Shown here: piece by piece, positions 2,505 through 35,518 of the stretch
Layout of the letters: every line of letters begins with the position of its first letter
How positions within the stretch are numbered: the first letter of the stretch is position 1
Assembly (NCBI GenBank): GCA_017962545.1
Contig: JAGCVD010000032.1
Location: 1 to 38,134 of the forward strand
Length of the DNA stretch: 38,134 bases
Source of the DNA: Bacteroidales bacterium
GTDB lineage: Bacteria; Bacteroidota; Bacteroidia; Bacteroidales; P3
Direction: 5' to 3'
The notes under the pieces: model-generated
The model's input: the letters and a program-made list of their open reading frames with translations, nothing else
What the model was told of the DNA's origin: nothing
Database searches by the model: none
Position numbers and translations under genes: made by a program

Positions 2505-4307
2505 ATGAAAAATATCCGCAACTTTTGTATAATTGCTCATATTGACCACGGTAAGAGCACGTTGGCCGACCGCCTGCTGGAGGTGACAAACACCGTCTCG
2601 CAGCGCGAAATGCAGGACCAGGTGCTCGACGACATGGAGTTGGAGAAGGAGCGCGGCATCACTATCAAGAGCCACGCCATACAGATGAACTATTCGAGGT
2701 CGGAGGTCGGAGGTCGGAGGTCAGAGTATATACTGAACCTTATCGACACACCGGGGCACGTGGACTTCAGCTATGAGGTGAGTCGCGCCATCGCGGCCTG
2801 CGAGGGAGCTCTGCTGGTGGTCGACGCCACACAGGGTATACAGGCCCAGACGATAAGCAACCTTTATCTGGCGCTGGAGAACGACCTTGAGATTATCCCG
2901 GTGATGAACAAGATTGACCTCGACAGCGCGATGCCGGAAGAGGTAGCCGACGAGATTGTCGACCTGCTGGGCTGCAAGCACGAGGACATCCTGCGCTGCT
3001 CGGCGAAGACAGGTATGGGTGTACCCGAGATACTCGACGCCATCGTCGACCGCATCCCCGCCCCCGAGGGCGACCCTAATGCGCCCCTTCAGGCCCTCGT
3101 CTTCGACTCGGTGTTCAACCCGTTCCGCGGTATCATCAGCTACTTCCGCATCATGAACGGCACGCTGAAGACGGGCGACCACGTGAAGTTCTACAGCACA
3201 GGCAAGGAGTACGACGCCGACGAGGTGGGCGTGCTGCGCCTGAACATGGAGCCCTGCAAGGAGCTCTCGGCCGGCAATGTGGGATATATCATCAGCGGCA
3301 TCAAGAGCAGCAAGGAGGTGCGCGTGGGCGACACCATCACGCATGTCGACGCTCCCTGCGAGAAGCCCATCGAGGGCTTCGAGGCCGTGAAGCCGATGGT
3401 CTTCGCGGGCGTCTATCCCGTCGACACCGACGACTACGAGGAGCTGCGCGCCAGCATAGAGAAGCTGCAGCTCAACGACGCCAGCCTCACCTTTGAACCG
3501 GAAAGTTCATTGGCGCTGGGCTTCGGCTTCCGCTGCGGATTCCTCGGCCTGCTACACATGGAGATTGTGCAGGAGCGCCTCACGCGCGAGTTCAACATGG
3601 ATGTCATCACCACGGTGCCCAACGTGCAGTACAAGGTGAAACTCACCAACGGCAGCGAGATCGACGTCTACAATCCCTCGGGCATGCCCGAACCCAACAA
3701 TATCGCGGAGGTCTACGAGCCTTACATCCACGCGCAGATTATCACCAAAGCCGACTTCATCGGGCCTGTGATAAAACTCTGCATGGACAAGCGTGGCCAA
3801 CTGAAGAACCAGAACTACCTCACCACCGACCGCATCGAGATTACTTTCGACTTGCCGCTGGGCGAGGTGGTGTTCGACTTCTACGACAAGCTGAAGAGCA
3901 TCTCGAAGGGCTACGCCTCGTTCGACTACTATGTGAACGGCTACCAGCCCTCGAAGCTGGTGAAGCTGGAGATACTGCTCAACGGCGACCCTGTGGATGC
4001 CCTCAGCACGCTGACCTATGTCGACAACGCCTATCCCATCGGCCGCAAGATGTGCGAGAAACTGAAAGACCTCATCCCGCGTCAGCAGTTCGATGTAGCC
4101 ATCCAGGCCGCCATCGGCAGCAAGATTATTGCTCGCGAGACGGTGCGTCAGGTGCGCAAGGATGTGACGGCCAAGTGCTACGGTGGCGACATCACGCGTA
4201 AGCGCAAGCTGTTGGAGAAGCAGAAAGAGGGTAAGAAACGCATGCGCCAGGTGGGCAACGTCGAGGTGCCGCAGAGCGCCTTCCTGGCAGTCTTGAAATT
4301 GGATTAA
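2505..4307 (+). CDS. lepA: Elongation factor 4 (LepA)
   Basis: This 600-aa translational GTPase works on the ribosome; family members back-translocate or rescue stalled elongation complexes. The protein shows the P-loop AHIDHGKST (residues 11-19), the [13 protein letters not shown] switch I region, DTPGHVDF (81-88) and NKID, then the EF-G-like domains and the LepA C-terminal end with [15 protein letters not shown] and [16 protein letters not shown]. The start is ATG 2505 because the family begins [19 protein letters not shown]; the frame is open further upstream but lacks similarity. An oddity is residues 64-74 ([11 protein letters not shown]), coded by four GAGGTCG-type heptamers (2696-2723), where relatives carry a shorter loop before the conserved [11 protein letters not shown] lipoprotein gene follows after 22 bp and probably shares the transcript. 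Confidence 0.97.
2696..2723 (+). repeat. Heptamer array inside lepA
   Basis: Three copies of GAGGTCG and one GAGGTCA in a row, in frame within lepA. The same heptamer forms the array at 6230-6257. Confidence 0.9.
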
Positions 4308-4329
4308 TCATTAAAAAACAGTTATAGTT

Positions 4330-4836
4330 ATGAAGAACATGTTCAAGTATCTGGCCGTGATGGCCATAAGTGTTTCCCTCGTAGGTCTGGTGGCATGCGA
4401 GCCCGAGCCTACCACTCCCGAGGACGCCTATTCGTTCCAATATATGGGGAGTACTCTCGAGCCGAACCAGACCGTCACATACAGCCCTTCGATGACTGAT
4501 ATAGCGCAGGACTGGGCCACCACGACCGACTTCTTTGTGGTGAACAATACCGATGCCGACCTGCAGAGTGTGCTGAAGGTGGAGAAGGTGTCGGGTAGCG
4601 CGGAGGCCAACACAATAATGTTCTGCTTCGGCGAAGAGTGCATGACTGCCACTTGCCCGTGGACTTCCGATCCATTGACGATAGTGCCCGGTGTGAACGA
4701 AAATTTGCCGTTGCACGTGCAGTATTCCCCCAGCAGTATAAACATCGAGACGGTTTACCGCATCACTATTGGCAAAGGCACCTCGTTGGAGAGCCCCCGG
4801 TCGGTGCTGCTCAAATTGGGCGGTCTGATAGAATAG
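4330..4836 (+). CDS. Small lipoprotein of unknown function
   Basis: This 168-aa protein starts with a lipoprotein signal peptide: a basic start, a hydrophobic core and the lipobox LVAC, so Cys23 is the likely lipidated residue. The next residues (EPEPTTPED) are acidic, which in this phylum often goes with surface or outer-membrane sorting. The mature part is rich in Thr, Ser and beta-type sequence (QTVTYSP, DFFVVNNTD, VYRITIGKG) and looks like one immunoglobulin-type beta sandwich. It has three more Cys, two of them in the stretch MFCFGEECMTATCP, which could form disulphides in the periplasm. I do not recognise a named family. It follows lepA by 22 bp. Its stop codon is one base from the stop of the converging flippase gene, leaving no room for a terminator. 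Confidence 0.8.
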   Translation: MKNMFKYLAVMAISVSLVGLVACEPEPTTPEDAYSFQYMGSTLEPNQTVTYSPSMTDIAQDWATTTDFFVVNNTDADLQSVLKVEKVSGSAEANTIMFCFGEECMTATCPWTSDPLTIVPGVNENLPLHVQYSPSSINIETVYRITIGKGTSLESPRSVLLKLGGLIE

Positions 4837-4837
4837 A

Positions 4838-6094
4838 TTATTCTTTGAGTGTGCGCTCGTAGCGATACACTTGCCAAAGGTACCATATCAGCAGGGACGC
4901 TGCCACCAGAGCCCCTGCTGTTGCATATAGACGTATGGCCAGCAGGAAGTCGGCGGCATGGATGCCCAGAGCGATGGCTGCCCCCCGGAGCGCCAGCAGC
5001 ACCAGGTAGAATCCGAACTCTGTTCGCTGGGTGGAGAAGACGTTGCTGATGAACATCAGGGAGGTGGAGCTCAGCATCAAGAACACCCAAGGCAGCATCG
5101 CCTGTACATAGATGCCACAGCCTGCCCAGCGGCCGCCGAAGCAGAAGGCGAAGACGGGCTCGGCGACGAACCAGGCCAGCACAAACAATGGGATTGCGAT
5201 GGCGTTAAGGATGAGCAGGAAGCGCGTAATCAGCCGGCTGACACTCTGCCGTTGGCGCACGGCTTCGGCGGTGCGGGCGTAGAGAACTTGCTCGAAGGCC
5301 ACGTTGAGAATGTTGATGGGGCGGAAAGTGAAGGTCAGCGCCAAAGCGAAGAGACCCACGTCGGCGCGGTCGAAATAGAGCGCCAGCCAGAGGAAAGGCA
5401 GGTTGGACGAGAAACTATTGACGAAGTCCTTGGTGGCCACATAGCGCGGGTAGTTGCGATGCTTGCGGGCTACGGATTTCAGTTCGGTATTTGGAATTCG
5501 GAGTTCGGAGTTTTTGGGATACCTTAACCGATATACCAAGTTTCCTATGGCGCGGCCAGCCACGGTGCCGATGGGCATTCCGGCTTGCAGGACACCCAGC
5601 AGACCCAGCGCTATCTTGATGACGGCTCCCGATGCAGCATTGACGGTCTCCGAGGTGGCCATAGTGCCATAGCGGTGGGCGCGGTTGAACAGGAAGCTAT
5701 ATACGCGTGAGGTGCCGCAGAAGAACACCATGGGAGGGATGAGCAGCACAATCCAGCCCAACTCGTCGAAGTTGCCAGGCAGGGCGCCTGTGAGCCACAA
5801 TACCAAGGCGATGGTAAGTAACGCGGTCGATACGATGGCGTTGAGCCTCAGCGTGAAATGCGCCATAGCGGAAGCCTCACGGTCGCTGTCGGCCACCACG
5901 ATAGCCAGTTCATATTTACACGTGCTGAGGATGATAAGCACCTCGATATAGGAGTAGAAGATGGAGTAGAGACCATAGTCTTCGGTGGAGAAGATGCGGG
6001 TCAGGGCGAAGTAGGCCACCAGACTGATAATCTGTGCCAATATGTTGCCGCTCAGCAACGTGCTCATCTCGCGGATAATGGTTTTCTGCTTCAT
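4838..6094 (-). CDS. Polysaccharide flippase (Wzx/MATE-like)
   Basis: This 418-aa protein is a multi-pass membrane protein of the polysaccharide biosynthesis export family (Wzx type), which moves lipid-linked sugar units across the inner membrane. The N-terminus (EMSTLLSGNILAQIISLVAYFALTRIFSTEDYGLYSIF) is the typical first pair of helices of the family, with RxFSxxDYGLYS after helix 1. About 10-12 hydrophobic segments run to the C-terminus. Around residues 192-205 (KNSELRIPNTELKS) there is a hydrophilic stretch coded by a heptamer array (5481-5515), in a loop between helices. Its ATG overlaps the TGA of the VWA-like gene by four bases, so the two are translated together. No glycosyltransferases are near, which is unusual for a flippase gene. 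Confidence 0.88.
   Translation of the reverse strand: MKQKTIIREMSTLLSGNILAQIISLVAYFALTRIFSTEDYGLYSIFYSYIEVLIILSTCKYELAIVVADSDREASAMAHFTLRLNAIVSTALLTIALVLWLTGALPGNFDELGWIVLLIPPMVFFCGTSRVYSFLFNRAHRYGTMATSETVNAASGAVIKIALGLLGVLQAGMPIGTVAGRAIGNLVYRLRYPKNSELRIPNTELKSVARKHRNYPRYVATKDFVNSFSSNLPFLWLALYFDRADVGLFALALTFTFRPINILNVAFEQVLYARTAEAVRQRQSVSRLITRFLLILNAIAIPLFVLAWFVAEPVFAFCFGGRWAGCGIYVQAMLPWVFLMLSSTSLMFISNVFSTQRTEFGFYLVLLALRGAAIALGIHAADFLLAIRLYATAGALVAASLLIWYLWQVYRYERTLKE
5481..5515. repeat. Heptamer array inside the flippase gene
   Basis: Five units on the plus strand: AGTTCGG, TATTTGG, AATTCGG, AGTTCGG, AGTTTTT. The units are degenerate but keep the 7-bp period. Confidence 0.75.
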
Positions 6095-8064
6095 AGTTCG
6101 CCGAGGTATTTACGTATTACCCACTCTGCCGCCAAGAGCAGGAGGATGAGCGCCAGGATGAGCGGCAGCCTCAAGAACTCGGCATAGCGAGTGTGGGTGT
6201 AGATGGTGGGTTTAAGGGTTTTGAGCAGCGAGGTGAGAGGTCGGAGGTCGGAGGCTGAGTATAGGGTTCCGCCGGTGAGAGTGCTCAAGGTGGCCAGCAA
6301 GGTGTGGTCGGCACCGAGCCGTTGTTGTTCAAGGTTCATGGCTTCGACGGCGAAAGTTCCTTCGGCCGTCTGGCCGTTGGCGGTGGCGCGGTAATGGTAA
6401 AGACCTTCGTCAAGTGGCGGCAAGGTTAGGCTGTAGCCGCCGGCGTCGCGCCGGAAGGTGTAGTCGGCACCCTCAACGGTAAGGGTGACGTCGGCATTGT
6501 TGACGGCTTCGTAGTTCTCGTTGTAGAGTACGGCACGCAATACGATGGGCTCGCCTTCGGCGTAGGTCCGCTCGGCCTCCACCTGCAGCCGGTTGCGGTC
6601 GATCTGCATGGCGGTGAAGGAGACCAGCTGTCCGACAAGATGGTCCACGTGGTTGTGGCTTTCATGGCTCTGCCAGTCGGCCAGCCGCCAGTGCCATAGA
6701 CCTTCACCCCATATCCAGGCGCGGCGTTGTTCTCCTTGTGCTGTGGCGGCGACGAGAGGTTGGCGGGTGTCGATGTTGCCCAGCCGGGCGGAGAAGAGTG
6801 TCTGAATGTCGGCTGTGAGTCGAGCCTCGCCAAAAGGTGCCGACAATGGCGGTAGGGCTTCGAGGGCGGTGATGTCGGCCTCGTCGAGGGTGAAAAGGGT
6901 GAAGTCGGTCTGGTGCAGGGCTGTCACCTCGTTGCTGCGCTGCACTTTGGCGACAATCTCCATGCCGCTGTGCAGGGCATTGAAGCGCGCTAGGTCGGTC
7001 TGCAGACCGACGATGGAGATTGTCGGCAACGCATTGGCGTAGGCCACCGAGGGGTGGTTGCGCGAGGGCAGGTTGTGAAGCACCGCCATGCTGACATCGT
7101 CGCCGGCTTTCCACTTGCCACTCTCGGCATCCGCCGCCATGACAACCTCGACGGCGTAGTTGGGATTGCTCTCGATGGCGCCTTTAAGCGCCGCCAGGTC
7201 GGGGTGTGGCGCGTTGGCGAAGAGGACCACCTTGCGGCGCGAGTCGATGACATCGATGTAGACAGATAGGGTATTGTTGCTCAGTGAGGTCTCTCCCGAT
7301 ACTGGCGCCAGACTGATGGTATAACGCTGTAGTCCTGGAGCATCGGCAGGCAACGAGATGGTGTAGGTGGCGCTGAAGTCGTCGTCGTTGTAGGCAACGG
7401 CCTGTGTGTGCAGTAGCTTGCCGTCGTTGTTGTGAATGGAGAGGCGGGTGTTGGCGTCGCGAAGCAGGGTGGCATTGACCGTGACTTCCACGGGGAAGGT
7501 GCTGCTGAGCATGGCGATGCGGTTGCAGCGCAGGTTGGCCAGCCAGGCATCGCGTTGCACCGTGGTGTCGCCGAGGGCGATACAATGGATGTGAAACGAC
7601 AGATGTTCTGCCACCGAGGTGGGGTTGTCGCCTCGGTTGTGCAGGCCGTCGCTGGCCAGCACGAAGGCTGCCACGTCGTCGTTGCGGTAGCGGTCGAGCA
7701 CCGCACCGATGTCGGTCGACCCCTCGGTGCCGAAGGGTACGTAGCTCACACGACAGGATGCTTCAAGGTCGGCGATGAGTTTCTCGAGCGAGAAACTGGA
7801 GTCGGCACTCATCCTCACCGAGCCCGATATGTCCTGCGCCAGCACCACGTGGGGCTTTTGTCGCTCGTTGACGGTCTGCTTCGACATAGGGGCCAACAGC
7901 AGGAAAGCGATGGCGCTCACCGACAGGAAGCGCAGCGCAGCCAGTGCCCACCGCCAGCCACGGCAGAAGGTGTTGCGCCCCGCGAAGTAGAGCACCGTGG
8001 CGTATGCTGCTCCCGCCAGCAGGCAGAACAATACGAAGTACCAAGGATAGTCGGTGAGTATCAA
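6091..8064 (-). CDS. VWA-like inner-membrane protein
   Basis: This 657-aa protein has two N-terminal membrane helices (about 10-27 and 40-58), a large periplasmic part and one C-terminal helix (about 630-648). A von Willebrand A-like fold follows the second helix: DISGS at 78-82 is a DxSxS metal-site motif, and FVLASDGLHNRGDNP supplies the later Asp. The middle has beta-sandwich and glutamine-amidotransferase-like regions as in related membrane VWA proteins; the exact role is unknown. It starts at TTG 8062-8064: the only in-frame ATG comes after both helices, and the upstream gene stops six bases before. Near the C-terminus, a heptamer array (6230-6257) codes for YSASDLRPLTSLL. Two OMP genes lie directly upstream and the flippase gene overlaps downstream. 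Confidence 0.8.
   Translation of the reverse strand: MILTDYPWYFVLFCLLAGAAYATVLYFAGRNTFCRGWRWALAALRFLSVSAIAFLLLAPMSKQTVNERQKPHVVLAQDISGSVRMSADSSFSLEKLIADLEASCRVSYVPFGTEGSTDIGAVLDRYRNDDVAAFVLASDGLHNRGDNPTSVAEHLSFHIHCIALGDTTVQRDAWLANLRCNRIAMLSSTFPVEVTVNATLLRDANTRLSIHNNDGKLLHTQAVAYNDDDFSATYTISLPADAPGLQRYTISLAPVSGETSLSNNTLSVYIDVIDSRRKVVLFANAPHPDLAALKGAIESNPNYAVEVVMAADAESGKWKAGDDVSMAVLHNLPSRNHPSVAYANALPTISIVGLQTDLARFNALHSGMEIVAKVQRSNEVTALHQTDFTLFTLDEADITALEALPPLSAPFGEARLTADIQTLFSARLGNIDTRQPLVAATAQGEQRRAWIWGEGLWHWRLADWQSHESHNHVDHLVGQLVSFTAMQIDRNRLQVEAERTYAEGEPIVLRAVLYNENYEAVNNADVTLTVEGADYTFRRDAGGYSLTLPPLDEGLYHYRATANGQTAEGTFAVEAMNLEQQRLGADHTLLATLSTLTGGTLYSASDLRPLTSLLKTLKPTIYTHTRYAEFLRLPLILALILLLLAAEWVIRKYLGEL
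6230..6257. repeat. Heptamer array inside the VWA-like gene
   Basis: GAGGTGA, GAGGTCG, GAGGTCG, GAGGCTG on the plus strand, which is antisense to this gene. The heptamer is the same as in lepA. Confidence 0.85.
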
Positions 8065-8070
8065 CCTTCG

Positions 8071-8715: not shown

Positions 8716-8728
8716 TGCTTATACATTT

Positions 8729-9376: not shown

Positions 9377-9401
9377 ATCCAATGAATTAATATTTCCGCT
9401 G

Positions 9402-9409
9402 CAAAAATA
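9402..9409 (-). promoter_or_regulatory. Promoter -7 box of the OMP-VWA-flippase operon
   Basis: TATTTTTG on the minus strand, 25 bp before the start codon. A TTG lies 21 bp upstream. The surrounding TGTATTTTTGCAGCG is repeated at the promoter of the zinc-ribbon gene near 36950. Confidence 0.6.
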
Positions 9410-9446: not shown

Positions 9447-9482
9447 ATCCTCGCATCATCCTCGCATTTTAACATTTCAGAT
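9447..9482. repeat. 36-bp dispersed element, copy 1
   Basis: On the minus strand it reads ATCTGAAATGTTAAAA then two 11-bp direct units (TGCGAGGATGA, TGCGAGGAT). It is 35/36 identical to 32649-32684. It lies between the M16 peptidase gene and the OMP promoter, 37 bp upstream of the -7 box. Confidence 0.88.
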
Positions 9483-9533: not shown

Positions 9534-10754
9534 TTAGTTTCCGTAAACGAGGGTGGAGAAAAGGCCGGGTCGGAAGCGTTCCTGCGCTACACGCAGCACA
9601 TCGGCGGCGGTGACTTTGAGGATGTCGGCGGTCATCTCTTCGAGGGTGTCGACGCGGTCGAAACTCAGATAGGCCTTGCCGATGGACTGCATCTCGTCCG
9701 AGCCGTCGGCTTGTGCTATGGCCATCTGTGCTGCCATCTGGCCTCGAGCCTGCTTCAGAGTACGCTCGGTCAGCGATGTTGTGGCCAGACGTTCCAGTTC
9801 ATCGTGTATCAGTTGTAATGTGCGCTCCTCGGCATGGCTGTCGACGCCAGCGTAAATGTAGAACAGGCCGGTGTCGCAGTAGGGGACATACTGCGACTCG
9901 ATGGTGTAGCAGAAGCCATGGTGTTCTCGAACCGCCATATTGAGGCGCGAGGTCATGGCCGGTCCGCCCAGGATGTTGTTGATTAGCGTGAAGGCTGTCT
10001 TGTCGGTACTATAGATACTTGGTGCTTCACAGCCCAGCATGATAAGCGTCTGGTGGTTGTGGCGATGCACACGCTGTTCGAAGGTGCGGAACACAGGACG
10101 CACCGTGCGTGGGTTGTCCGACGGGTGGTCGGCATAGCTGCCGAAGTGGCGCTCGCAGAGTTGTACCAAGCGGCCGAAGTCCACATTACCCACCACGCTC
10201 ACCACCATGCGTGACGGTGTGTAGCATTGGCGCAGACGCTCGCGCAAACGCTCCGACGTGAAGTGGCGCACCGTGCGCTTCGAGCCCAATATCTTGTGTG
10301 CGATAGGGTGTCCTTCGTAGACCATCTCCTCGAACTGGTCGCCGATACGCTCGGCAGGGATGTCGTTGTAGGTGTTGATTTCTTCCAGCACCACATCTTT
10401 CTCTTTTTCAATCTCGGTCTCGGGGAAGGTGGAGTGGAAAAGCATGTCGGCGAAGAGCTCGAGACAACGCGGCAGATGTTCGGCCAGCGAGGTAGCGTAA
10501 ACGCAGGTCTCCTCGCGAGTGGTGAAGGCGCTGAGTTCACCTCCCACGCCGTCAATACGGTTCAGGATATGCCATGCACGACGGTGTTCGGTGCCTTTGA
10601 AGAGCGTGTGCTCAATGAAGTGCGCTATGCCTTCATCCTCGCCATGCTCGTCGCGCGACCCCACGTTGATGTACACGCCGGAGTAGACCACCCTAGAGGG
10701 TGTGTGGGAGAGGATTATTCGGATTCCGTTGCTGAGGGTGTGGTATTGGTACAT
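9534..10754 (-). CDS. M16 family zinc peptidase
   Basis: This 406-aa protein belongs to the insulinase/pitrilysin family M16 (processing-peptidase-like, subfamily B size). The inverted zinc motif HFIEH is at residues 45-49, and the third ligand Glu is in VLEEINTYND (about residue 124), 76 residues on as the family requires. RLNMAVREHHGFCYTIESQYVPY in the second half is the usual substrate-binding RxxxREKxGLxYxxxS region. No signal peptide is visible, so it acts in the cytoplasm or is exported by another route. Its start lies 40 bases inside the upstream O-antigen-ligase-like gene, in another frame, so the pair is probably translationally coupled. Downstream is the 157-bp gap with the 36-bp element. 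Confidence 0.93.
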   Translation of the reverse strand: MYQYHTLSNGIRIILSHTPSRVVYSGVYINVGSRDEHGEDEGIAHFIEHTLFKGTEHRRAWHILNRIDGVGGELSAFTTREETCVYATSLAEHLPRCLELFADMLFHSTFPETEIEKEKDVVLEEINTYNDIPAERIGDQFEEMVYEGHPIAHKILGSKRTVRHFTSERLRERLRQCYTPSRMVVSVVGNVDFGRLVQLCERHFGSYADHPSDNPRTVRPVFRTFEQRVHRHNHQTLIMLGCEAPSIYSTDKTAFTLINNILGGPAMTSRLNMAVREHHGFCYTIESQYVPYCDTGLFYIYAGVDSHAEERTLQLIHDELERLATTSLTERTLKQARGQMAAQMAIAQADGSDEMQSIGKAYLSFDRVDTLEEMTADILKVTAADVLRVAQERFRPGLFSTLVYGN

Positions 10755-12277
10755 TGTGATGTTCTAAAGGACAGGAAATAGGTACAGAAGAGGATGCCGG
10801 CAAGGGTGTCGAGGGTGTCCTCGGTGAGGAAGCTGATAAGGACGGTGAGCACCCAGGCAAACATCACGGGAGAGAGGTGCGATGAACGATGAGCGACAAT
10901 AGCTCGGAGGAGGAAGAACAACAGGATGGCGCAACCGAGGATGCCGAAAGCGGCAAGGAAGCCCAGATATTGGCTGTGGGTGCTCTTGCGGGTGTCGGCC
11001 AGGCTGGAGTCCATCTCGGTCAGACGTGCATGGAGGGCATCATCGACATCGCCGGTACCGACGCCGAACCACAGATGGTCGTGCACCACGTCGAGGGTGG
11101 CGCGCCAGAGTTCAAGGCGTTGGATCATGGTGAAGCCTTGGACGGCATGGGTGTGAACGTAGTATTCCCGCTCGAAGAGCATGACATAGACCATCTTGCG
11201 CAGAGGGTTGCCGCCGGCATAGACGGGGTTGGCGATGCCGTGCTCGATATCGTTCACCTGCTTGTCCGTAAGGGCGTTGACCCCAACACTATCCTTGGTG
11301 AGCCCCAGCGCGTTGAGATAGCGTACCAGCGTGGGCTGCAAATTGTAGCCTTCGTCGCCGACGCTGTCATAAGGTACTGAGCTTCGTCGCTGCCATTCCG
11401 CGCGCAATTCGTCGGTACACAGATAGTTGTTGATGTAGTTTCCGTTCTCGATGATGCCGTCACAATAGTGCTCATAAGCCCTGCCTCCCGCGGTGAGGGT
11501 CGGCAACGGTTGACTGGCTTGTGGGATGAGACGGTAATAGGCTTTTACTTCGCGGCCCACAAGGAAAACGACAGCGCCGGCAAGGCAGAACCACAGCACC
11601 ACCAGCGGCCAGCGGTGGCGGTAGTATACCAGCAGGAGCACCAGCGAGACGACCGCCAAGATGCCGAAGGCGGTATAGGAGTGGATGAGCGCCAGGAATA
11701 CCAGCATCCAAAGGGTGAGGAGTATGCGGATGATAAGGATGGCCAGAGGATAGCGACCACTGCCGATAGCCCACTGCCGATAGCCCACTAAAAGATAAAC
11801 CACCATGCAGCAGTTCAGGGCGAAGCGGATGTGGGAGATATAGGGTACGGCGTCACGGTAGGGGAGGTCGGAAATGGTGAGCATGCGCACAAGGGCTATA
11901 ATGCTGACCACCAGAATAGTGGTGATATATGCCCCCAGTATGAGGTGGCGTGCACGGCCTGTGACGGGCTTAGTGGTAAGCACTACCAAGGGCACCACCA
12001 ACATCGGCAGCTTGACTTGCAATACATTGAACCCATGGGTGATGTTAGTGGTCCAGAGCATGCCGACGGTGTAGATGATAGAGAACGCCACGATGGCCTG
12101 CAGCAGGCGGCACTGGCGCGCCATCTGCCATTTCTCGCGCCAGCGGCCCTCAAATAGCCAATTGACCCCCAACAGCACCCACATCAAGTTGGCCGCCCAC
12201 ACCGAGGTGACCATGCAGCCGCCCAACAGCGTCAGCAGCACGAGGTATATTGTCCTATGAGTCTTTCTCCCTAGCAT
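10715..12277 (-). CDS. O-antigen ligase-like membrane protein
   Basis: This 520-aa protein has about ten membrane helices, with a long periplasmic loop between about residues 240 and 440 and two or three helices after it. This is the plan of the O-antigen ligase / Wzy polymerase family (Wzy_C, WaaL), which joins sugar chains to a lipid core or to each other. The family His-rich loop motif is seen in DHLWFGVGTGDVDDAL and THSQYLGFLAAFGILG (the usual HNxYLxxLxExG). A heptamer array (11757-11791) codes for GYRQWAIGSGRYPL between helices. It starts 22 bp after the S41 protease gene. Ligase or polymerase cannot be told apart here. Confidence 0.85.
   Translation of the reverse strand: MLGRKTHRTIYLVLLTLLGGCMVTSVWAANLMWVLLGVNWLFEGRWREKWQMARQCRLLQAIVAFSIIYTVGMLWTTNITHGFNVLQVKLPMLVVPLVVLTTKPVTGRARHLILGAYITTILVVSIIALVRMLTISDLPYRDAVPYISHIRFALNCCMVVYLLVGYRQWAIGSGRYPLAILIIRILLTLWMLVFLALIHSYTAFGILAVVSLVLLLVYYRHRWPLVVLWFCLAGAVVFLVGREVKAYYRLIPQASQPLPTLTAGGRAYEHYCDGIIENGNYINNYLCTDELRAEWQRRSSVPYDSVGDEGYNLQPTLVRYLNALGLTKDSVGVNALTDKQVNDIEHGIANPVYAGGNPLRKMVYVMLFEREYYVHTHAVQGFTMIQRLELWRATLDVVHDHLWFGVGTGDVDDALHARLTEMDSSLADTRKSTHSQYLGFLAAFGILGCAILLFFLLRAIVAHRSSHLSPVMFAWVLTVLISFLTEDTLDTLAGILFCTYFLSFRTSQCTNTTPSATESE
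11757..11791. repeat. Heptamer array inside the ligase-like gene
   Basis: CCACTGC, CGATAGC, CCACTGC, CGATAGC, CCACTAA: two heptamers alternate, making a 14-bp unit repeated two and a half times. Confidence 0.9.
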
Positions 12278-17088: not shown

Positions 17089-17175
17089 ACCAATCCTTCT
17101 TCGTACCTCCAATAACGCGCATGGCGGTCGTTTATTGTATGTTTTATAAATAAATTGCAGCCATTTGTCTCCTAC

Positions 17176-17201
17176 CGACCCTCGCCCGACCCTCGCCCGA
17201 C
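17176..17201. repeat. 11-bp direct repeats upstream of the lipid kinase gene
   Basis: CGACCCTCGCC occurs twice, and a third copy begins with CGAC. On the minus strand the core is GGGCGAGGGTC, close to the GCGAGGAT core of the 36-bp element. It lies in the 284-bp divergent gap between the lipid kinase and holB genes. Confidence 0.85.
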
Positions 17202-17344
17202 ATACACTATATAACATCCTGTAAAAGTATGAGTTGTGTGGAATTGCGGTGGAGCTTAAAAAGAGTTAAAATATTTTGGTCTTCGGAAGAAAGTTCCGAG
17301 CGCATATTTAACAATTTTTTTTCGTACATTTTACATTTTATTTG

Positions 17345-28074: not shown

Positions 28075-28091
28075 AAGAGGACGTTGGAATA

Positions 28092-28778
28092 TCAGTGGGC
28101 TATGCTGAAGGTGGCGGCGCTGAGGCGGAGTCCAGGGACGGTGAGCAACGCGTCGGCGCAGGCGGTCAGGGTGGCGCCGGTGGTGAGCACATCGTCGACC
28201 AGTAGCACGTGCCGTCCCCTTAGTTGCTCGGGATGGCGTACGTGGAAGGCTCCTTCGACATTGGCGTTGCGGGCGTCGCCCGTCTGCCGGCTTTGTTGGC
28301 GCGTGTAGCGGTGGCGCACGACGGCCGTGATGTTCACCTCGCGTGGCATCACCGCGGCGATACCGCGGCAGAGCAGCTCACTCTGGTTGTAGCCGCGATG
28401 CAGGCGACGCCACCAGTGCAACGGCACGGGCACCAATATGTCGACGTTGTCGAAACGTCCGCTGCGGAGCAGTTCCAGACCCATCTGCCGTCCCATCATC
28501 AGGCAAAGGTCGCTGTTGCCATAGAACTTCATAGCATGTGTCACCTTCTGCACGGTGTTCCCTTTCTGGAAGTGGTAGAGCGACATGGCGGCCTGTAACG
28601 GCAGCCGTGCGCCCAGTTGCCGCTCGGCGGCATTGTCGGCTACGGTGCTGTCGCGGGTCTCGTTGAGCGAGGCTATGCAGTCGAGACATAATAGGCGTTC
28701 TCCCCTCACAAGTGCTTGTCCACAGGCGGCGCAGGTCGATGGGAAGAGGACTTGGAAAATGGCGGCGAAGGGGTTCAT
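28092..28778 (-). CDS. ComF family phosphoribosyltransferase-like protein
   Basis: This 228-aa protein has an N-terminal zinc module, CAAC at 16-19 and CLDC at 31-34, and a C-terminal phosphoribosyltransferase fold with the PRPP-type motif HVLLVDDVLTTGATL. RRLHRGYNQSELL is the family motif in between. ComF proteins are needed for DNA uptake in some bacteria; in Bacteroidetes the role is unproven. The start is ATG 28778 because it overlaps the queA TGA as ATGA; an earlier in-frame ATG at 28802 is less likely. It is the last gene of the lipoprotein-pssA-queA-comF group. Confidence 0.9.
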   Translation of the reverse strand: MNPFAAIFQVLFPSTCAACGQALVRGERLLCLDCIASLNETRDSTVADNAAERQLGARLPLQAAMSLYHFQKGNTVQKVTHAMKFYGNSDLCLMMGRQMGLELLRSGRFDNVDILVPVPLHWWRRLHRGYNQSELLCRGIAAVMPREVNITAVVRHRYTRQQSRQTGDARNANVEGAFHVRHPEQLRGRHVLLVDDVLTTGATLTACADALLTVPGLRLSAATFSIAH

Positions 28779-29986
28779 GGATTGTGTGGCAGGAAGAAGC
28801 AACTGTCACCGTAGCTGAGGAAGCGGAAGCCATGGTCGAGGGCGTAGCGGTAGCAGTCGCGCCAACGGTCGCCTATCAGGGCGCTGACCAGCAGCAGCAG
28901 GGTGCTCTTGGGCTGGTGGAAGTTGGTGATGAGGCCGTCGACGAGGCGGTAGCGGTAGCCGGGGGCTATCATCAGCTGCGTTTCTCCGACCAGCGTGGTG
29001 CTGTGTTGTCGGTCGAGGTGGCGCAGCACGTTGCCGAGAGCCTCGGTACGGCTTAAGGAAGGCAAACTATAGGGGTTCCATTGGCCCACCTGCATCGGAC
29101 TGTCGGGCTGTTCTGCCAGCCGCACACCGTACCAGTAGAGCGATTCGAGTGTGCGTACCGACGTGGTGCCGACGGCCACCAAAGGACGGTCGAGTTGTTG
29201 CAGTTTTTCGATAAGCGTACGTCCGATGACGACGTGCTCGGTGTGCATCTCGTGTTCACCGATGGTGTCGGTGCTGACGGGCTTGAAGGTGCCTGCGCCG
29301 ACATGCAGGGTGACATAGTCGGTCTCGATGCCTTGGTTTTGCAGCTGGCTGATGAGCGCCGGCGTGAAGTGCAGTCCCGCCGTGGGCGCCGCCACGGAGC
29401 CGTCGTAGTGGGCGTAGACCGTTTGGTAGCGGGTAGCGTCGTCGGCCTCGGCCTCACGGCCTAGATAGGGTGGCAGGGGGATGACGCCAGCGGCCTCGAT
29501 GACCTCGGCGAAACTCATACCTCCCGTCCAGCAAAAGTCGACAATCCATGCATTTCCAACAGCCTCGCGTCGCTCAGCAGTAAGGCAGAACTCACCACTT
29601 TCCACTCTCCACATTCCACTTAACGCTCCTTCTTTCCACTTCTTATTGTTGCCGATAAAGCAGATCCAAGAGCAACGCTCGCGTTGCTCGAAGGCTTCCG
29701 AGACCGCCATATTGTAGGGCTCGAGACAGAAGACCTCTATCAGCGCGCCCGTCTCCTTGTGGAACAGCAGGCGGGCATGGATGACTTTGGTGTCGTTGAA
29801 CACCAGCAGGCTTCTCTCGGGCAGCATCGACGGCAGGTCGTAGAAATGATGTTCGGTGATGGTGTCACCTTTCAGGCAGAGTAACTTGGAATGGTCGCGC
29901 TCGGCCAGCGGATAACGGGCGATACGCTCGTTGGGTAGAGGATAGTCGTAGTCCTCAATACGGAGGCGCTTCAGCTCGTCAAGCAT
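28775..29986 (-). CDS. queA: tRNA preQ1(34) S-adenosylmethionine ribosyltransferase-isomerase
   Basis: This 403-aa enzyme makes epoxyqueuosine in tRNA by transferring the ribosyl part of SAM. It begins IEDYDYPLPNERIARYPLAERDHSKLL, and later shows SLLVFNDTKVIHARL, the AAPTAGLHFT motif and VTLHVGAGTFKPV, all typical of QueA. ATG 29986 is chosen: it overlaps the pssA stop by eight bases. The protein is longer than the usual 340-350 residues; part of the extra length is a Trp/Ser/Gly segment, SGMWRVESGEFCL (about 123-135), coded by a heptamer array (29592-29619) after the KKWKEG motif. Confidence 0.95.
   Translation of the reverse strand: MLDELKRLRIEDYDYPLPNERIARYPLAERDHSKLLCLKGDTITEHHFYDLPSMLPERSLLVFNDTKVIHARLLFHKETGALIEVFCLEPYNMAVSEAFEQRERCSWICFIGNNKKWKEGALSGMWRVESGEFCLTAERREAVGNAWIVDFCWTGGMSFAEVIEAAGVIPLPPYLGREAEADDATRYQTVYAHYDGSVAAPTAGLHFTPALISQLQNQGIETDYVTLHVGAGTFKPVSTDTIGEHEMHTEHVVIGRTLIEKLQQLDRPLVAVGTTSVRTLESLYWYGVRLAEQPDSPMQVGQWNPYSLPSLSRTEALGNVLRHLDRQHSTTLVGETQLMIAPGYRYRLVDGLITNFHQPKSTLLLLVSALIGDRWRDCYRYALDHGFRFLSYGDSCFFLPHNP
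29592..29619. repeat. Heptamer array inside queA
   Basis: TCACCAC, TTTCCAC, TCTCCAC, ATTCCAC: four units with the common end CCAC on the plus strand (GTGG on the coding strand). Confidence 0.85.
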
Positions 29987-30674
29987 GCTTCTTCTGGGTG
30001 AACATGGAGAATACAATATACCACAGGATGATGGCTGAGATGGCAATCCAATCGCGCAAGAGAGCAATGATGACGGCACAAACAATGAGGAAGATGTACT
30101 GCACGTTGTTGGTCTTCCATGAAAGGTCCTTGAAGTTGAACTTCAGCGAGAAGAGCGGCAGCTCGGAGACCATCAACACGTCGAGCAGAAGTGAAAGCAA
30201 CACAACCGCAACTGGCCATTGGCCCACGACAATCCCGTAATGGCTTATGGATAGGCCCACCCACACTAAAGCCTGGCTGGGTACTGGCAAGCCGAGGAAA
30301 GAATGGCCTTGGCGAGTGTCGAGGTTGAACTTAGCCAGGCGGTAGGCTGCGAAGAGCGGAATCAGCAGGTAGGAGGCAATCATCCATTGTGAGCCGCTTT
30401 CCAATAACGGATAGTAGGTAATATCAAATAGGATTGCAGCAGGAGCCACTCCGCTTGTAACCACGTCGGCCAGCGAATCCAACTCCTTGCCCATTGGCGA
30501 GGCAACGCCTAACAGACGTGCCGACATACCATCGAAAAAATCGAAGAATATGCCTAAGCAGATGAGAAATGCCGCCTGTCTTGGGAATCCGTAACCAAGT
30601 ACAGCTAAAACAGACAACACTCCGCAAGCGAGGTTGCAGAGTGTTATCATGTTAGGTATTTGCCGCTTAATCAT
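29979..30674 (-). CDS. pssA: CDP-diacylglycerol-serine O-phosphatidyltransferase
   Basis: This 231-aa inner-membrane enzyme makes phosphatidylserine from CDP-diacylglycerol and serine, the first step to phosphatidylethanolamine. The CDP-alcohol phosphatidyltransferase signature is seen as DGMSARLLG, then GKELDSLAD (DGxxAR, G, DxxxD). About six to eight membrane helices follow. The start overlaps the end of the OmpA-like lipoprotein gene by eight bases, and the stop overlaps queA by eight. psd is not in the window. Confidence 0.94.
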   Translation of the reverse strand: MIKRQIPNMITLCNLACGVLSVLAVLGYGFPRQAAFLICLGIFFDFFDGMSARLLGVASPMGKELDSLADVVTSGVAPAAILFDITYYPLLESGSQWMIASYLLIPLFAAYRLAKFNLDTRQGHSFLGLPVPSQALVWVGLSISHYGIVVGQWPVAVVLLSLLLDVLMVSELPLFSLKFNFKDLSWKTNNVQYIFLIVCAVIIALLRDWIAISAIILWYIVFSMFTQKKHA

Positions 30675-32493
30675 TGTAGAGCTTCACGATGAGTTTGAAG
30701 TCGGGGTCGTCCCAATACTCACGGAACTCGGTGTCGATGATGGCTTTGCGCTTGTACTCGTAGTCTTCGTCGATGGAGGCCTTGAGGTTCTTGAAGCAGT
30801 TCTCTCTGTCACCCAGACGTGCGTAGCACACGGCGCGCAGGTAGTTGACATCCTTGTTCTGGTCGAGGCAGCAGTCGAGTGTGCGGATGGCGGTGCCGGT
30901 CTCGTCGTTCATCAGCTGGGCAAAGGCTAGGTTGTAGGTGCAGGGATTGGCCTTGAGGGTCTTCTGGGCATCGTTGTAGTTGCCGCGTTTGAGGTCGAGG
31001 ATGGGGAAGTTGGCGTCGGCATCGGTGCTGCCCTGACGCTTGGCCTCCTCAAAGTAATGCTTGGCCAAAGTATAGTCCTTGCGGCCCAGATAGAGTAGGC
31101 CGGTGTTGTTGAGCACATCGGGGTTGTGGGGGTTGAGGTCGCGGGCCACCTTCAGGTAGCGGTCGGCCTCGTCGTAGTCGTCAAGATAGAAGGCGATGGC
31201 GCCGGCGTTGTTCCAAGCGGCCCACTCCTGCGGGTGGTTCTCGGTGGCCCACTTGTAGTACTTCATTTTGGTGTCGTAGTTGTAATTGATGTAGGCGGTG
31301 TACATTAGCTCGTCGAACGAGAGTTTGGCGGGGTTGATCTGAGCCTGCTTGGCCAACTCGGCGTCGGTCTTGCGGGCTTCGCTGTAGTACAGCGCTATCT
31401 GCGCACGGCGCAGGTTGGGGAAGATGTCGTCGTTGAGCTCGCTGTAGACCTCAGCCATGTTGCGGATCATCTGCTCGCGCTTGACAAGGTTCTGCTGAGT
31501 CTCTACGATGTTCACGATGGCGTGTTTGTCCTGTATCTCCGAGCCTTCCACCATGACCACGAAGTGCACCCAGTCCTCGCCCGAGGCACGGGTGGTAATG
31601 ATCATCTGCTTGCGCTGCTCGTATTTGTAGTATTCCACGTCCTTGGCTTTGGCGCGGCGGGCCATGATGGTCAGCACCTCGTCGAGGATGCGGTTGAGCT
31701 GAGCCGTGGCTACGTCGGCACGGTTCTTTGAGACGCCCACGTTGGCGGTCTCCTCGCCTTCGGGCGAAGCCCAGCCGGTGATGCTGATTTGCTTGGGGAG
31801 TCCCTGCTCCAGCATGACACGTTTCAGGTGCTGCAGCGAGCCCTGGGCGTCGAACTTCTGGTTCATCGAGAAATTCCAGTCGAGTTCCGACGTGCCACCT
31901 TCAAAGTAGATGTCGGCGGTCTCGACAATGCCCTGGGTCTTGTTGTAGTTGATGGGAGAGATGGATATGTTTCCTTTGATGTCAACCCACGACGAGGTGT
32001 TGTTGACACCGTCGGAGAGCATCACGGTATTGAACTCCACGCCTTTGCTGTCGCGCAGCACGTCCTCGGCCACACGGGCGTCCTCATTGGTGTGAGCCGA
32101 CTTGTAGCCCACGGGCGTCAGCGTCACACGGCCTGTCTCCATGCCCGGCTTGAAGTCGAACATGTCGCTGTAGGTGAAGCGGCCACCGTTCTGGTAGTTA
32201 ATGGTGGTGCCGTCGCCGTCGACGTTCTCACCCTTCAGGGTCAAAGGCTCCAGAGGTATGCTGCCGCCTTCCCAGTAGAATATCGGCTGGATGAATACAG
32301 CGCAGTTCTTGTCGAAATACTTCTCAGGCACCGAGCCGGTGAACTTCACCACCACCTTCTCGTCCATGGTCTCCACGGGGTTGGGATTGGCGGCATAGCG
32401 CACGCGCGAACTCGTAGTTTTCATTTTTTTCAGCCCGTTGCAGCCCGTAAGCAGCACGCCGATGAGCAGAAATACCCAAAGTGACTTTCTCAT
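30667..32493 (-). CDS. TPR lipoprotein with OmpA-like region
   Basis: This 608-aa lipoprotein has the lipobox LLTGC (Cys about 18). After a beta-rich N-terminal part, residues about 215-330 (SGTSELDWNFSMNQ-like start, QISITGWASPEGEETANVGVSKNRADVATAQL) resemble an OmpA-type peptidoglycan-binding fold, where ASPEGxxxxNxxLSxxRAxAV is the usual motif. From about 430 to 590 there are tetratricopeptide repeats (WAAWNNAGAIAFYLDDYDEADRYLKVA, PDVLNNTGLLYLGRKDYTLAKHYFEEA). It is likely tethered to the outer membrane and bridges to the cell wall. Its promoter is 89 bp upstream and pssA overlaps its end. Confidence 0.88.
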   Translation of the reverse strand: MRKSLWVFLLIGVLLTGCNGLKKMKTTSSRVRYAANPNPVETMDEKVVVKFTGSVPEKYFDKNCAVFIQPIFYWEGGSIPLEPLTLKGENVDGDGTTINYQNGGRFTYSDMFDFKPGMETGRVTLTPVGYKSAHTNEDARVAEDVLRDSKGVEFNTVMLSDGVNNTSSWVDIKGNISISPINYNKTQGIVETADIYFEGGTSELDWNFSMNQKFDAQGSLQHLKRVMLEQGLPKQISITGWASPEGEETANVGVSKNRADVATAQLNRILDEVLTIMARRAKAKDVEYYKYEQRKQMIITTRASGEDWVHFVVMVEGSEIQDKHAIVNIVETQQNLVKREQMIRNMAEVYSELNDDIFPNLRRAQIALYYSEARKTDAELAKQAQINPAKLSFDELMYTAYINYNYDTKMKYYKWATENHPQEWAAWNNAGAIAFYLDDYDEADRYLKVARDLNPHNPDVLNNTGLLYLGRKDYTLAKHYFEEAKRQGSTDADANFPILDLKRGNYNDAQKTLKANPCTYNLAFAQLMNDETGTAIRTLDCCLDQNKDVNYLRAVCYARLGDRENCFKNLKASIDEDYEYKRKAIIDTEFREYWDDPDFKLIVKLYND

Positions 32494-32581
32494 TTTTATA
32501 TATTCTTTCTTTGTTTATATACGTTGTTATCAACCACTTGCAGGCCTGTGTCGGGCCGTGCAGCGGTATTCTTTCAATCTG

Positions 32582-32611
32582 CAAATATACATTTTTTTTC
32601 GTAATCGGCAA
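32582..32611 (-). promoter_or_regulatory. Promoter of the lipoprotein-pssA-queA-comF operon
   Basis: TTG (32609-32611), 19 bp, TATATTTG (32582-32589) on the minus strand; leader of about 85 nt. Confidence 0.75.
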
Positions 32612-32648
32612 TATTTTTTTTGTCTTCACCCTTCTCTTTTCAGGCATC

Positions 32649-32684
32649 ATCCTCGCACCATCCTCGCATTTTAACATTTCAGAT
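32649..32684. repeat. 36-bp dispersed element, copy 2
   Basis: 35/36 identical to 9447-9482, in the same orientation, with the two 11-bp GCGAGGAT-type units. It lies between the AddB-like gene and the lipoprotein operon promoter, 59 bp upstream of the -7 box. Confidence 0.88.
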
Positions 32685-32710
32685 TCAGGTGGGTCGCTCG
32701 TGGGATATGG

Positions 32711-35518
32711 TCAAGGGTGTTTGGGGCAGAAGGTGCGGACGTCGCAGTAGCGGCAGTGCTCTTTCTTGTTGGTGGCGAGGAAGGGGATGGAGGGGTCCAT
32801 CAGTTCGCGGCAGCGGTCGGTGAGCATGGCGCGGAAGTTGGCAAGCATGGTCGGCGTGATGTCGGCTTGACCGTCCCAAGTGGCGAGACACACGTCGGAC
32901 TGCAGGTTCCGCAAGGGGTAGATGCCTGCAGTCAAACTGTCTGCTGAGGCCCACGAGCCTGACGAGCGAACTGCCAACTGCCAACCGTCTGCATACAATA
33001 AGGCATAGCACATCAGTTGGAACCACTTGCCGGGGACGACGACCTCGCCGTTGCGGTTGGGGGTGCTGCTGTAGGCTATCTCGTTGTCTTGCAGGCTGCC
33101 GGTCTTGTAGTCGATGATGCGTAGACGGCCGTCGAAGCGGTCGATACGGTCGGCCTTGCCCTTGAGGTTGATGCCGTCGCCAAGGTCGAGCGGGCCGAGC
33201 TCTTTCTCGAGACCTACTATCTCGATGGTGTGGCCTTGTTCTATCAAGGTTATCTCTTTCTGCAGCATCCGCTTGAGTTGTGCTTCGGCGACAGCGTGGA
33301 GGTAATGGTTGCGGCCCTCGGCGGTACGTCCGTGTAGGAAGAGGTGTTTGAACTCGCGCTGCATGTACTGGGGCAACTCGTCGAGGGCACGGTGCAGATG
33401 GGCAGCGTCGACGGCACGGCCCAGACAGGGCTCGTAGATGTCGCGGAGCACGTTGTGGATGGCGGTGCCAAGCTGCGAGGCATCGAGGTCTTCCTCGAGG
33501 TCGTTCTCCTGGCTGATGCCGAGCACACGGAGGTAGTAGTAGCGCAGGGGGCACTCAAGGTAGTCGGCGAAGACGGTAGGCGCGAAGCCCCTGTGTGCCA
33601 GCTCACCGAGGCGTTGCATGACAGCGGCGTCTTTGACGCCGACCTCTGGGTCTTTGCCTCCGCCCTCAATGGGCGGCTCGTTGTTGTTGACTACCATGTG
33701 ATGTACTTTGATACCGTAGCGCGGCGCCAACTCGTGCTCCACTTGTCGTATGAAGCGGCTGGGCTCGCCCTTGCCCATGGCCTCGGTCTCCGAGTTGTAG
33801 ACGAGGTACACCTCCTCGGCTCGCAGCAGCAGGTGGTAGAAGTTGTAGGCGTAGACGGCGTCCTTTTCCTGATAGGTGGGCAGTCCGAACTGTCGTTTCA
33901 ACTCGAAGGGTATCAGCGAGCTGTTGCTGCGGCTCGCCGGCAGGATGCCTTCGCCCACCGAGAGGAGTATGACGCGGCGGAAGTCAAGGTTACGGGTCTC
34001 GAGCATACCCATGATTTGCAGTCCCGAGAGAGGCTCGCCGATGAGGGGTATCTGGTGCCGTTGTGCGATGCGGAGGAATATCTTCTCCAGCGTGGCGAGG
34101 TCGGTGATATAGCCGTAGGCCTGCTGCAACTCGCCGAGGTAGTCGAGTACCTCCACTAGGCTGCCTGCGGCCTGCAGTTCTTTCTTGTTGGTCTCCAGTA
34201 TCTTGCTGTCAACGATAGCGGCCACTGTGCGGCGCATCATGGCGAGCCAGGCGTCGACGGTCGTCGGCGTGTCGGGGAAGAGGTCTGCAAGGGTGTCGTT
34301 GCCAAGGAAGGCCAGAATGTCGCTGCCTTTGCAGCGTATGATGTTGCCGTCGTGCAGGAAACGCGAGGTGCGGCGGCGCAGGTCCATGATGCCGAGCAAC
34401 CGCACGATATGGCGGTCGGAGAGCACGGCGAGCAGGTCGCTGTGGTGGAAGCCCCGCTGGTCGGCGTTGCGCCAGAGGGACAACAGGCGACAGGCGAGGA
34501 GGTGCATGCCGGTGTCGCAGAAGGCGAAGCCCAAAGAGATATTGACGTTGTAGTCGCCTTCGGGCAGCGCGCTGAGGCAGGGAAGCATGAGGCTCTCGTC
34601 GGCCAGCACCACGGCGGTGCCCTCCTGCTCGCCCTTGGCGAGCCAGGCGGGATGGTCGCTCAGCAGACGGCCAGCCAGCTTGCATTGCAGCACGTTCTCT
34701 GGACATTCGACGACGGTGATGTGACGGTCGCCTTGGGCAAAGAGCGAGGGGCCTGTGGGCACAATCTCGGGAAACTCCCCGCCGTGTTTGCTCAGGAAAT
34801 GGCCTGCCTCTTGCTCGGGTTGCAGGAAGTAGATGTCGCCGTCGGTGAGCAGATGCCCTACGCCGCGGCGCACATACTCGCCGATAATACGGCGCTCGCA
34901 TTCGCTGAGGGCGTTGAAGCCCACAAAATAGACGGCATCCCAAGGGATGTCCTCCATCGTGGTGATGTGGTCGGCCACCTCACGGTAGGCCATGCCGCTG
35001 TAGGCTTTGCCTTGTGACAGCAGCCGCTCGTGCAGACGGCGGTAGTATTCGTAGAGTGAACGGTAGAAGTGCAGGTAGTCGCGCTGAAAGGGTGTCAGTT
35101 TGGCGTCCTCGATGTCCCACTCGCCGATGGCTTTGAGGTCGTGCAGGTTGCCGAAGAGGTCGGCGGCATCGACGCAGTACTGGTCCAACTCGGAGAAGTC
35201 GCCCATCATCAGGTCGCCGAAAGCAATGAACTCGTCAAAGGTCTTGTATTTCCGGTTGTCGCCCTCCAGCTCGCCATGAATGCTGTAAAGCTCGAAGAGG
35301 AGGAATTCGTTGGGGATAATCTTGAGGCCGCCGAGGTCGGCTACGAGGTCGTCGATGGCCATGGTGCGGGGCAGGAACATGGTACGCCCCAGCGTGGTGA
35401 ACTGCCGCTGGAAGAAGCGCAGCGAGCGACGGTTGTTGAAGACCACCAGCACGCGGTCAGTGTCGCGGGGATGGGCGTCGGCGATGCGGCGCGCTACTTG
35501 ACGGAGGAAGCTGTCCAT
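32711..35518 (-). CDS. AddB-like PD-(D/E)XK nuclease
   Basis: This 935-aa protein resembles AddB (RexB-like) of the AddAB helicase-nuclease that processes broken DNA ends. The N-terminal half is a helicase-like fold; a typical ATP motif is not seen (VLVVFNNRRSLRFFQRQF is at the P-loop place). The nuclease domain is in the last 290 residues: GTAIHNVLRDIYEP, then KGKADRIDRFDGRLRIIDYKTG (about 783-805) with the catalytic Asp and Lys. Cys656 (YLECPLRYYY) and Cys922, Cys925 and Cys931 (HCRYCDVRTFC) form the four-Cys iron-sulphur site. An in-frame heptamer array (32966-32986) codes for WQLAVRS near residue 848. No addA is in the window. Confidence 0.9.
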   Translation of the reverse strand: MDSFLRQVARRIADAHPRDTDRVLVVFNNRRSLRFFQRQFTTLGRTMFLPRTMAIDDLVADLGGLKIIPNEFLLFELYSIHGELEGDNRKYKTFDEFIAFGDLMMGDFSELDQYCVDAADLFGNLHDLKAIGEWDIEDAKLTPFQRDYLHFYRSLYEYYRRLHERLLSQGKAYSGMAYREVADHITTMEDIPWDAVYFVGFNALSECERRIIGEYVRRGVGHLLTDGDIYFLQPEQEAGHFLSKHGGEFPEIVPTGPSLFAQGDRHITVVECPENVLQCKLAGRLLSDHPAWLAKGEQEGTAVVLADESLMLPCLSALPEGDYNVNISLGFAFCDTGMHLLACRLLSLWRNADQRGFHHSDLLAVLSDRHIVRLLGIMDLRRRTSRFLHDGNIIRCKGSDILAFLGNDTLADLFPDTPTTVDAWLAMMRRTVAAIVDSKILETNKKELQAAGSLVEVLDYLGELQQAYGYITDLATLEKIFLRIAQRHQIPLIGEPLSGLQIMGMLETRNLDFRRVILLSVGEGILPASRSNSSLIPFELKRQFGLPTYQEKDAVYAYNFYHLLLRAEEVYLVYNSETEAMGKGEPSRFIRQVEHELAPRYGIKVHHMVVNNNEPPIEGGGKDPEVGVKDAAVMQRLGELAHRGFAPTVFADYLECPLRYYYLRVLGISQENDLEEDLDASQLGTAIHNVLRDIYEPCLGRAVDAAHLHRALDELPQYMQREFKHLFLHGRTAEGRNHYLHAVAEAQLKRMLQKEITLIEQGHTIEIVGLEKELGPLDLGDGINLKGKADRIDRFDGRLRIIDYKTGSLQDNEIAYSSTPNRNGEVVVPGKWFQLMCYALLYADGWQLAVRSSGSWASADSLTAGIYPLRNLQSDVCLATWDGQADITPTMLANFRAMLTDRCRELMDPSIPFLATNKKEHCRYCDVRTFCPKHP
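32966..32986. repeat. Heptamer array inside the AddB-like gene
   Basis: GCGAACT, GCCAACT, GCCAACC on the plus strand: three units, 21 bp. Confidence 0.8.

Follow-up and report, generated by a model that had tools for sequence, protein, structure and literature searches.

Do the short heptanucleotide arrays found inside unrelated protein genes of this Bacteroidales DNA derive from one process working in steps of seven bases, and do they act as phase-variable switches? Both were proposed in a preliminary description of the window, i.e. the whole stretch of 38,134 bp analysed here (G000:C13:1-38134), which had listed 3–5 units of exactly 7 bp in each of six genes. The source genome (G000) comprises 1.95 Mb in 42 contigs, and by lepA it lies closest to metagenome assemblies of Bacteroidales, the top two being from sheep gut. 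The arrays of the window and the genes that carry them are as follows:

2505..4304, plus strand: lepA (translation elongation factor 4; TIGR01393, 994 bits)
2696..2726, plus strand: period-7 array GAGGTCG in lepA, 5′ of LIDTPGH (exact at 2696–2722, 27 bp, 3.9 copies)
4838..6094, minus strand: MOP-flippase-like gene (PRK10459, E 1.2e-10, under cut-off)
5481..5515, minus strand: degenerate period-7 array (AACTCCG family) in the flippase-like gene (TRF 5481–5512, 76% matches)
6091..8064, minus strand: putative VWA-like gene (label of the preliminary description; without NCBIfam match)
6230..6257, minus strand: period-7 array CCTCCGA in the VWA-like gene (detected at 6230–6254; exact core 6237–6254, 2.6 copies)
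10715..12277, minus strand: putative ligase-like gene (label of the preliminary description; without NCBIfam match)
11757..11791, minus strand: 14-bp-unit array in the ligase-like gene (perfect unit 11757–11789, 2.4 copies; period-14 score 19)
17325..17340, no strand: period-7 array TACATTT (2.3 copies; outside gene calls; absent from the earlier list)
28778..29986, minus strand: queA (PRK00147, 347 bits, above cut-off)
29590..29620, minus strand: degenerate period-7 array (AGTGGAA/AGTGGAG) in queA (75% matches)
32714..35518, minus strand: AddB-like gene (TIGR03623 and AddB models, both under their cut-offs)
32966..32986, minus strand: period-7 array GTTGGCA / AACTGCC in the AddB-like gene (2.4 copies, core 32969–32985)

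Clean 7-bp cores are present in only three of the six named arrays (lepA, VWA-like and addB-like), those of the flippase-like gene and queA being degenerate and that of the ligase-like gene having a 14-bp unit, so that the wording '3–5 units of exactly 7 bp' suits lepA best. Arrays in the window are 17–33 bp long and many are degenerate. All six lie within open frames, as had been stated, and their units do differ between genes, yet they share a degenerate consensus (see below). Their proposed placement in surface or loop-like parts may be right, the support for it consisting of the variable or indel positions that they occupy in alignments; structurally solved relatives exist for queA (1yy3, 1wdi and 1vky).

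Excess over chance and spread among genomes

Chance arising from base composition was rejected as an explanation. Six period-7 segments in the window scored ≥ 9, whereas 100 order-3 Markov simulations averaged 0.16 such segments and never exceeded 2; the ligase-like array, detected at period 14 only, is outside these six. The genome-scale counts that had been suggested as a check gave a strong excess over simulations, with 19 exact period-7 runs in 389 kb of the source genome (mean 0.2, five simulations), 41 in 734 kb (0 in one simulation) and, when mismatches were permitted, 71 arrays in the same 734 kb (0 simulated), this sample being a non-random draw from the 1.95 Mb, largely of contig starts. 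Period 7 ranked top among periods below 14, the exact runs in the 734 kb numbering 0, 3, 0 and 1 at periods 2–5, 5 at period 6, 13 at 8, 8 at 9, 3 at 10, 7 at 12 and 1 at 13. Periods 11, 15 and 18 were likewise in excess (17, 16 and 16 runs), and the 47 and 17 runs at periods 14 and 21 in part recount period-7 arrays.

The statement that no heptamer array lies between genes did not hold. It is wrong inside the window itself, since the array at 17325–17340 falls outside gene calls, and when the 734-kb sample was split into coding and other DNA by a simple hexamer-based gene caller, 46 arrays fell in genes and 32 outside, with a per-base density 8.3 times higher outside. The corresponding ratio was 4.9 in congener G012, 14.5 in G002 and 8.8 in G023. 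Array density being higher outside genes, the genes-only pattern is an accident of this window. The 11-bp period reported between genes, on the other hand, proved both right and general, with one such array in genes and 28 outside in the source sample, and five in genes against 104 outside over five genomes. These period-11 arrays are a separate phenomenon, almost purely intergenic, and their length was unchanged at all four places compared between the sister species G027 and G021. In the window they are found at:

2319..2352: period-11 array
9447..9467: period-11 array
17175..17201: period-11 array
32644..32668: period-11 array

Others lie at L092 9623–9673, at L104 19894–19943 and in stretches L208–L217 of G029, a genome that also has 22-bp units. 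Single genomes use units of this class repeatedly (200 kb of G029 contain AACAATCGAAG 13 times) and the arrays occasionally form inverted pairs; they might serve as sites for regulators or as terminators.

Exact period-7 runs numbered 7 in 200 kb of G012, 53 in 200 kb of G002, 19 in 170 kb of G023 and none in 200 kb of G029, the samples of G012 and G029 being a single contig each. These congener counts come from the exact-run scan; the mismatch-tolerant scan took in runs of N (one G002 unit consisted of N). The pattern AACTNNN was matched in 79 of 99 genomes, and inside the genus the matches per genome ranged from 0 to 324. These counts serve only for between-genome spread, as the reversed-pattern control TCAANNN exceeded AACTNNN in many genomes; this control is not neutral, because TCAANNN also occurs within arrays of the CAACTTT type. 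Both measures range widely and array load is therefore highly variable among congeners. Loss of mutS1 is unsupported as a requirement for arrays: a hit above the family cut-off is present in 53 of the 58 congeners, among them array-rich (G023, G028) and array-poor (G016, G018, G029) ones by AACTNNN count. The five assemblies with no mutS1 match above the cut-off (G021, G026, G037, G042 and G054) all have AACTNNN counts well over zero, so such loss may contribute. In a separate observation, G029, whose 200 kb held no period-7 run, gave one MutS-family match vs three in most congeners.

Changing units at the same coding sites

For each gene we compared 30 loci, the source genome included, out of 54 to 58 genomes with matches; the alignment took in every one of the 30 for lepA and queA, and 22 of 30 for the VWA-like, ligase-like and addB-like genes. 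Arrays (score ≥ 9) were present in 11 of the 30 queA loci, all at residues 155–169, and the units at this one site were of the types AGTGGAA, CGGTGGC, ACTACCA, AATTCTC, CACGATA and AATTCAA. Four of the 30 addB-like loci carry four different units at residues 845–863. In lepA, arrays occupied residues 65–76 in three of 30 loci, one unit being common to two of these. The VWA-like gene had eight arrays in three of 30 loci, at four places, of which residues 604–618 were common to all three; at the site used in the window, two congeners hold other units. Five arrays were found in four of 30 ligase-like loci, the heptamer arrays of two congeners lying in adjacent alignment columns, while the flippase array occurred in the window only among the 30 loci compared, at a site that is variable in orthologues. 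With random placement, the clustering seen was reached in 0 of 200000 trials for queA, and had frequencies of 5e-6 for addB and 7e-5 for lepA, in tests whose midpoints were set by hand and which treat species as independent although they are related. A distant Bacteroidales lepA (76% identical; L032 6951–6975) carries another heptamer array, of the AAAGTCG type, at this lepA loop. In one congener, lepA (G030:C151:13369-15225) matched in two pieces inside one 655-residue open frame, which suggests an in-frame insertion near residue 360.

Alignment of orthologues, proposed earlier as a check for insertion, gave a divided answer. There is a net gain over the shortest forms of lepA and addB: the stretch between anchors in lepA is 24–37 amino acids long over 30 loci, the array loci having 9, 9 and 13 residues more than the shortest form, and array loci of the addB-like gene (22 of 30 aligned) have 5 (three loci) or 10 (one locus) more, although loci without arrays vary in length too in both genes. 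No gain was seen in queA, where the anchors lie 41 residues apart in all but one of the 30 loci and 42 apart in that one, with or without arrays, nor at residues 590–632 of the VWA-like protein, which measured 43 in all 22 loci aligned. A queA tree built after masking of the site places G010 next to G012 (support 0.854); their genes are 84–87% identical in the 200 bp on either side, and the site itself holds two unrelated arrays of equal length. The pairs G036/G056 and G022/G009 differ in having an array vs no array in queA. No intermediate between array states was seen at this site among the loci compared. Judged from these alignments, queA is most plainly described as overwritten, not as having gained an insertion. 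A three-protein tree (masked, 22 species) groups G012 with G000, unlike the queA tree, and because of this conflict interspecies recombination may be involved.

Unit sequences and reading frame

When aligned by rotation and strand, the units of 172 arrays gave the consensus RARTKRD, with a score of 661 against 515–542 in 10 letter-permuted controls. Units stop-free on both strands made up 23 of the 47 in-frame units vs 1 of 48 non-coding and opposite-strand units (p 4e-8), a contrast that is confounded because the higher G+C of in-frame units (0.45, against 0.26–0.29 in the other two classes) alone reduces stops. The excess is what a filter on coding sequence would leave, and is partly a matter of base composition. 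Within genes, 29 arrays were in Y-sense and 15 in R-sense, at relative positions in the open frame between 0.07 and 0.90; with both orientations in use, a strand-specific RNA signal was rejected, and stop codons may account for the skew. Certain units recur, such as AACTCCG (6) and ACCTCCG (3) in the source sample, and G002 has an identical 33-bp AATTCTC array at two loci; AAGAATT, AAAATTG and AAAAATG each occur in more than one species. Flanks of same-unit arrays were barely more alike than those of different-unit arrays (similarity 0.408 vs 0.394, p 0.004), and inverted repeats (10 bp, within 25 bp) accompanied 0 of 87 source-sample arrays, with 3 among random stretches; on both grounds a mobile element with its own ends was rejected.

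Classed by the codon scores of their flanks, 44 of 174 arrays from four genomes (G029 has none) have coding flanks on both sides joined by one continuing stop-free frame. Twelve are exceptional, with a stop in frame or a change of frame: 10 of them lie at gene-call junctions, as judged by gene calls and protein ends, and two in ygiQ. The remaining 118 are uninformative on frame, since their flanks look coding on one side alone, on opposite strands or on neither side; the VWA-like and addB-like arrays of the window are among them, and its queA array was under the threshold of that scan.

In the ygiQ gene (radical SAM) of the source genome (L187 12337–14230, in G000:C41) the frame shifts at two arrays, leaving two pieces that match the two halves of TIGR03904. 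The same stretch is in frame in all 29 other congeners measured (30 loci of 51 genomes with a match), including seven of seven copies that bear arrays. The split gene could reflect an off state, gene decay or a mistake in assembly; it demonstrates that loss of frame can accompany arrays, which is a hazard and not evidence of a reversible switch. The same variable stretch of ygiQ in G012 (L387) holds a heptamer array and an in-frame insert, TPDPSPIGEGSG...PLSNRRGTGGEA, that looks like another small dispersed repeat.

The sister species G027 and G021, aligned over some 130 kb, have blocks that are mostly 90–97% identical, the lowest long blocks being at 83–85%. Ten period-7 places were compared between them. 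Four are coding, in long frames, and according to their translations would belong to a secreted LysM-like protein, an M16-peptidase-like protein and, for two of them, a 1007-residue frame; these differed by 0, 0, 0 and 21 bp. At the six remaining places, of which four share a stretch judged non-coding, the differences were 18, 5, 7, 1, 12 and 2 bp. Clean whole-unit differences are thus single cases, one of 7 bp (judged non-coding) and one of 21 bp (coding; three units and seven codons), whereas three places show no difference and five differ by 12, 18, 5, 1 and 2 bp, partly in poorly aligning sequence.

Origin of the arrays and known systems

We lean, with little better than even confidence, towards a genus-wide mutational process in 7-bp steps, consisting of slippage and homogenisation of RARTKRD heptamers filtered by selection in genes. 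The earlier proposal that one process plants or expands heptamers, with selection for frame afterwards, is supported in this by the period-7 excess, the common consensus, the stop-free coding units and the differences of 0, 0, 0 and 21 bp at coding places of the sister pair. Strand slippage would create, lengthen, shorten and homogenise such purine-rich heptamers, both in genes and between them, through transient misalignment and realignment that could also produce the length-neutral overwriting in queA. Mismatch repair ignores large loops, and loops of 7 nt would presumably escape it; the scarcity of 2–5-bp units beside the excess at 6 bp and above fits a repair system that spares large loops. 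The survivors in genes would be stop-free arrays that lie at tolerant sites and alter the net length by a multiple of 3; if survival is confined to such sites, the same ones would be struck repeatedly in different species. Slippage does not say why 7 should be preferred over 6, 8 or 9, and gives no reason for the 0 runs of G029 against the 53 of G002. Replacement of the whole queA site at constant length is not like a simple slippage product, and the recurrence of units inside one genome exceeds what blind slippage should yield; both points count against this reading. So does the sister pair, where a clean whole-unit difference was seen at only two of the ten places and half of them differed by other sizes.

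That recurrence, with the duplicated 33-bp array of G002 and the slightly greater similarity of same-unit flanks, would suit arrays that are copied between places by recombination or templated synthesis, with species-specific dominant units. We regard such dispersal as unlikely, given that the difference in flank similarity is tiny, that the arrays examined lack inverted repeats and that several units occur in more than one species. A selected function, by which the arrays would serve as binding sites or as RNA signals with a seven-base reading step, a role proposed for the TAACTGA repeats of Beggiatoaceae, would accord with the common consensus and the greater density between genes. It appears improbable nevertheless, as purifying selection would likewise give a greater intergenic density, the arrays take both orientations and a wide span of positions in genes, and G029 has none in its 200 kb. 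Of all readings we give least credence to contingency loci, where gain or loss of one 7-bp unit flips a gene on or off by frameshift; phase variation had been offered as a possible function, and this we find very improbable. Seven is indeed not divisible by 3, a 7-bp difference does separate the sister species at one place judged non-coding, and ygiQ of the source genome is out of frame at two arrays where other congeners keep the frame. Random states should, however, leave most arrays out of frame, and 44 are in frame against this one gene; long pure arrays would be expected in place of short and degenerate ones, lepA and queA are housekeeping genes, the sister-pair coding arrays differ by 0, 0, 0 and 21 bp, and the other array-bearing copies of ygiQ are in frame. 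A bolder idea, which we consider improbable, is that an active, heritable activity writes 7-nt units in many species of the genus, is silent in at least one, and rewrites tolerant protein sites length-neutrally with stop-free arrays. If true, it would be a steady source of new peptide sequence from non-triplet repeats.

The genus offers a natural case of tandem units, not a multiple of three, that repeatedly shape ordinary proteins at the same places. It makes testable the origin of bacterial heptamer repeats, the preference for 7 and the extent to which mutational bias rewrites proteins. It also cautions that a non-triplet repeat in a gene need not be a phase switch, and provides in ygiQ one concrete candidate with a lost frame.

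Among known systems, neuO and hmw1A are phase-variable heptanucleotide loci with long variable arrays in surface-related genes. They resemble the present case in having non-triplet tandem units that control coding DNA or lie within it, but the arrays here are short and in frame, and some are in genes that family models assign to housekeeping (lepA, queA). Rickettsia palindromic elements are longer, palindromic repeats accepted in frame inside protein genes; repeated DNA is tolerated in frame in unrelated proteins in both cases, whereas here inverted repeats are absent (0/87) and queA has no net insertion. In the short tandemly repeated repetitive (STRR) sequences of cyanobacteria, several heptamer families are dispersed within one genome, which is also the situation found here.

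Among long repeats, heptanucleotides form the most frequent category in most genomes, and slippage of the polymerase has been put forward as their cause (Mrazek et al. 2007, as reported in PMC4679880 and PMC4692102); heptanucleotides of Calothrix are mentioned as well (PMC4692102). Like these prokaryotic simple sequence repeats, the period-7 arrays occur far above chance genome-wide (41 vs 0 and 71 vs 0 in 734 kb), but 46 of the 78 in the source sample are genic, and congeners differ in unit at the same coding sites. The TAACTGA direct repeats of Beggiatoaceae, Cyanobacteria and five Bacteroidetes are, according to PMC4679880, one fixed heptamer placed mostly just 5′ of start codons, with related heptamers seldom repeated, and were proposed for Beggiatoaceae as binding sites or RNA signals in seven-base steps. 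Common traits are tandem heptamers, mostly in few copies and sporadic across species, whereas many units, both genic and intergenic, are found here. Heptamer arrays inside Bacteroidales genes were not the subject of any paper among the literature matches listed; PMC4679880 does cover TAACTGA in five Bacteroidetes. Heptanucleotide repeats themselves are thus of a known kind, and what appears to be new is that arrays return to the same places in genes while their units differ, without a change of length in queA.
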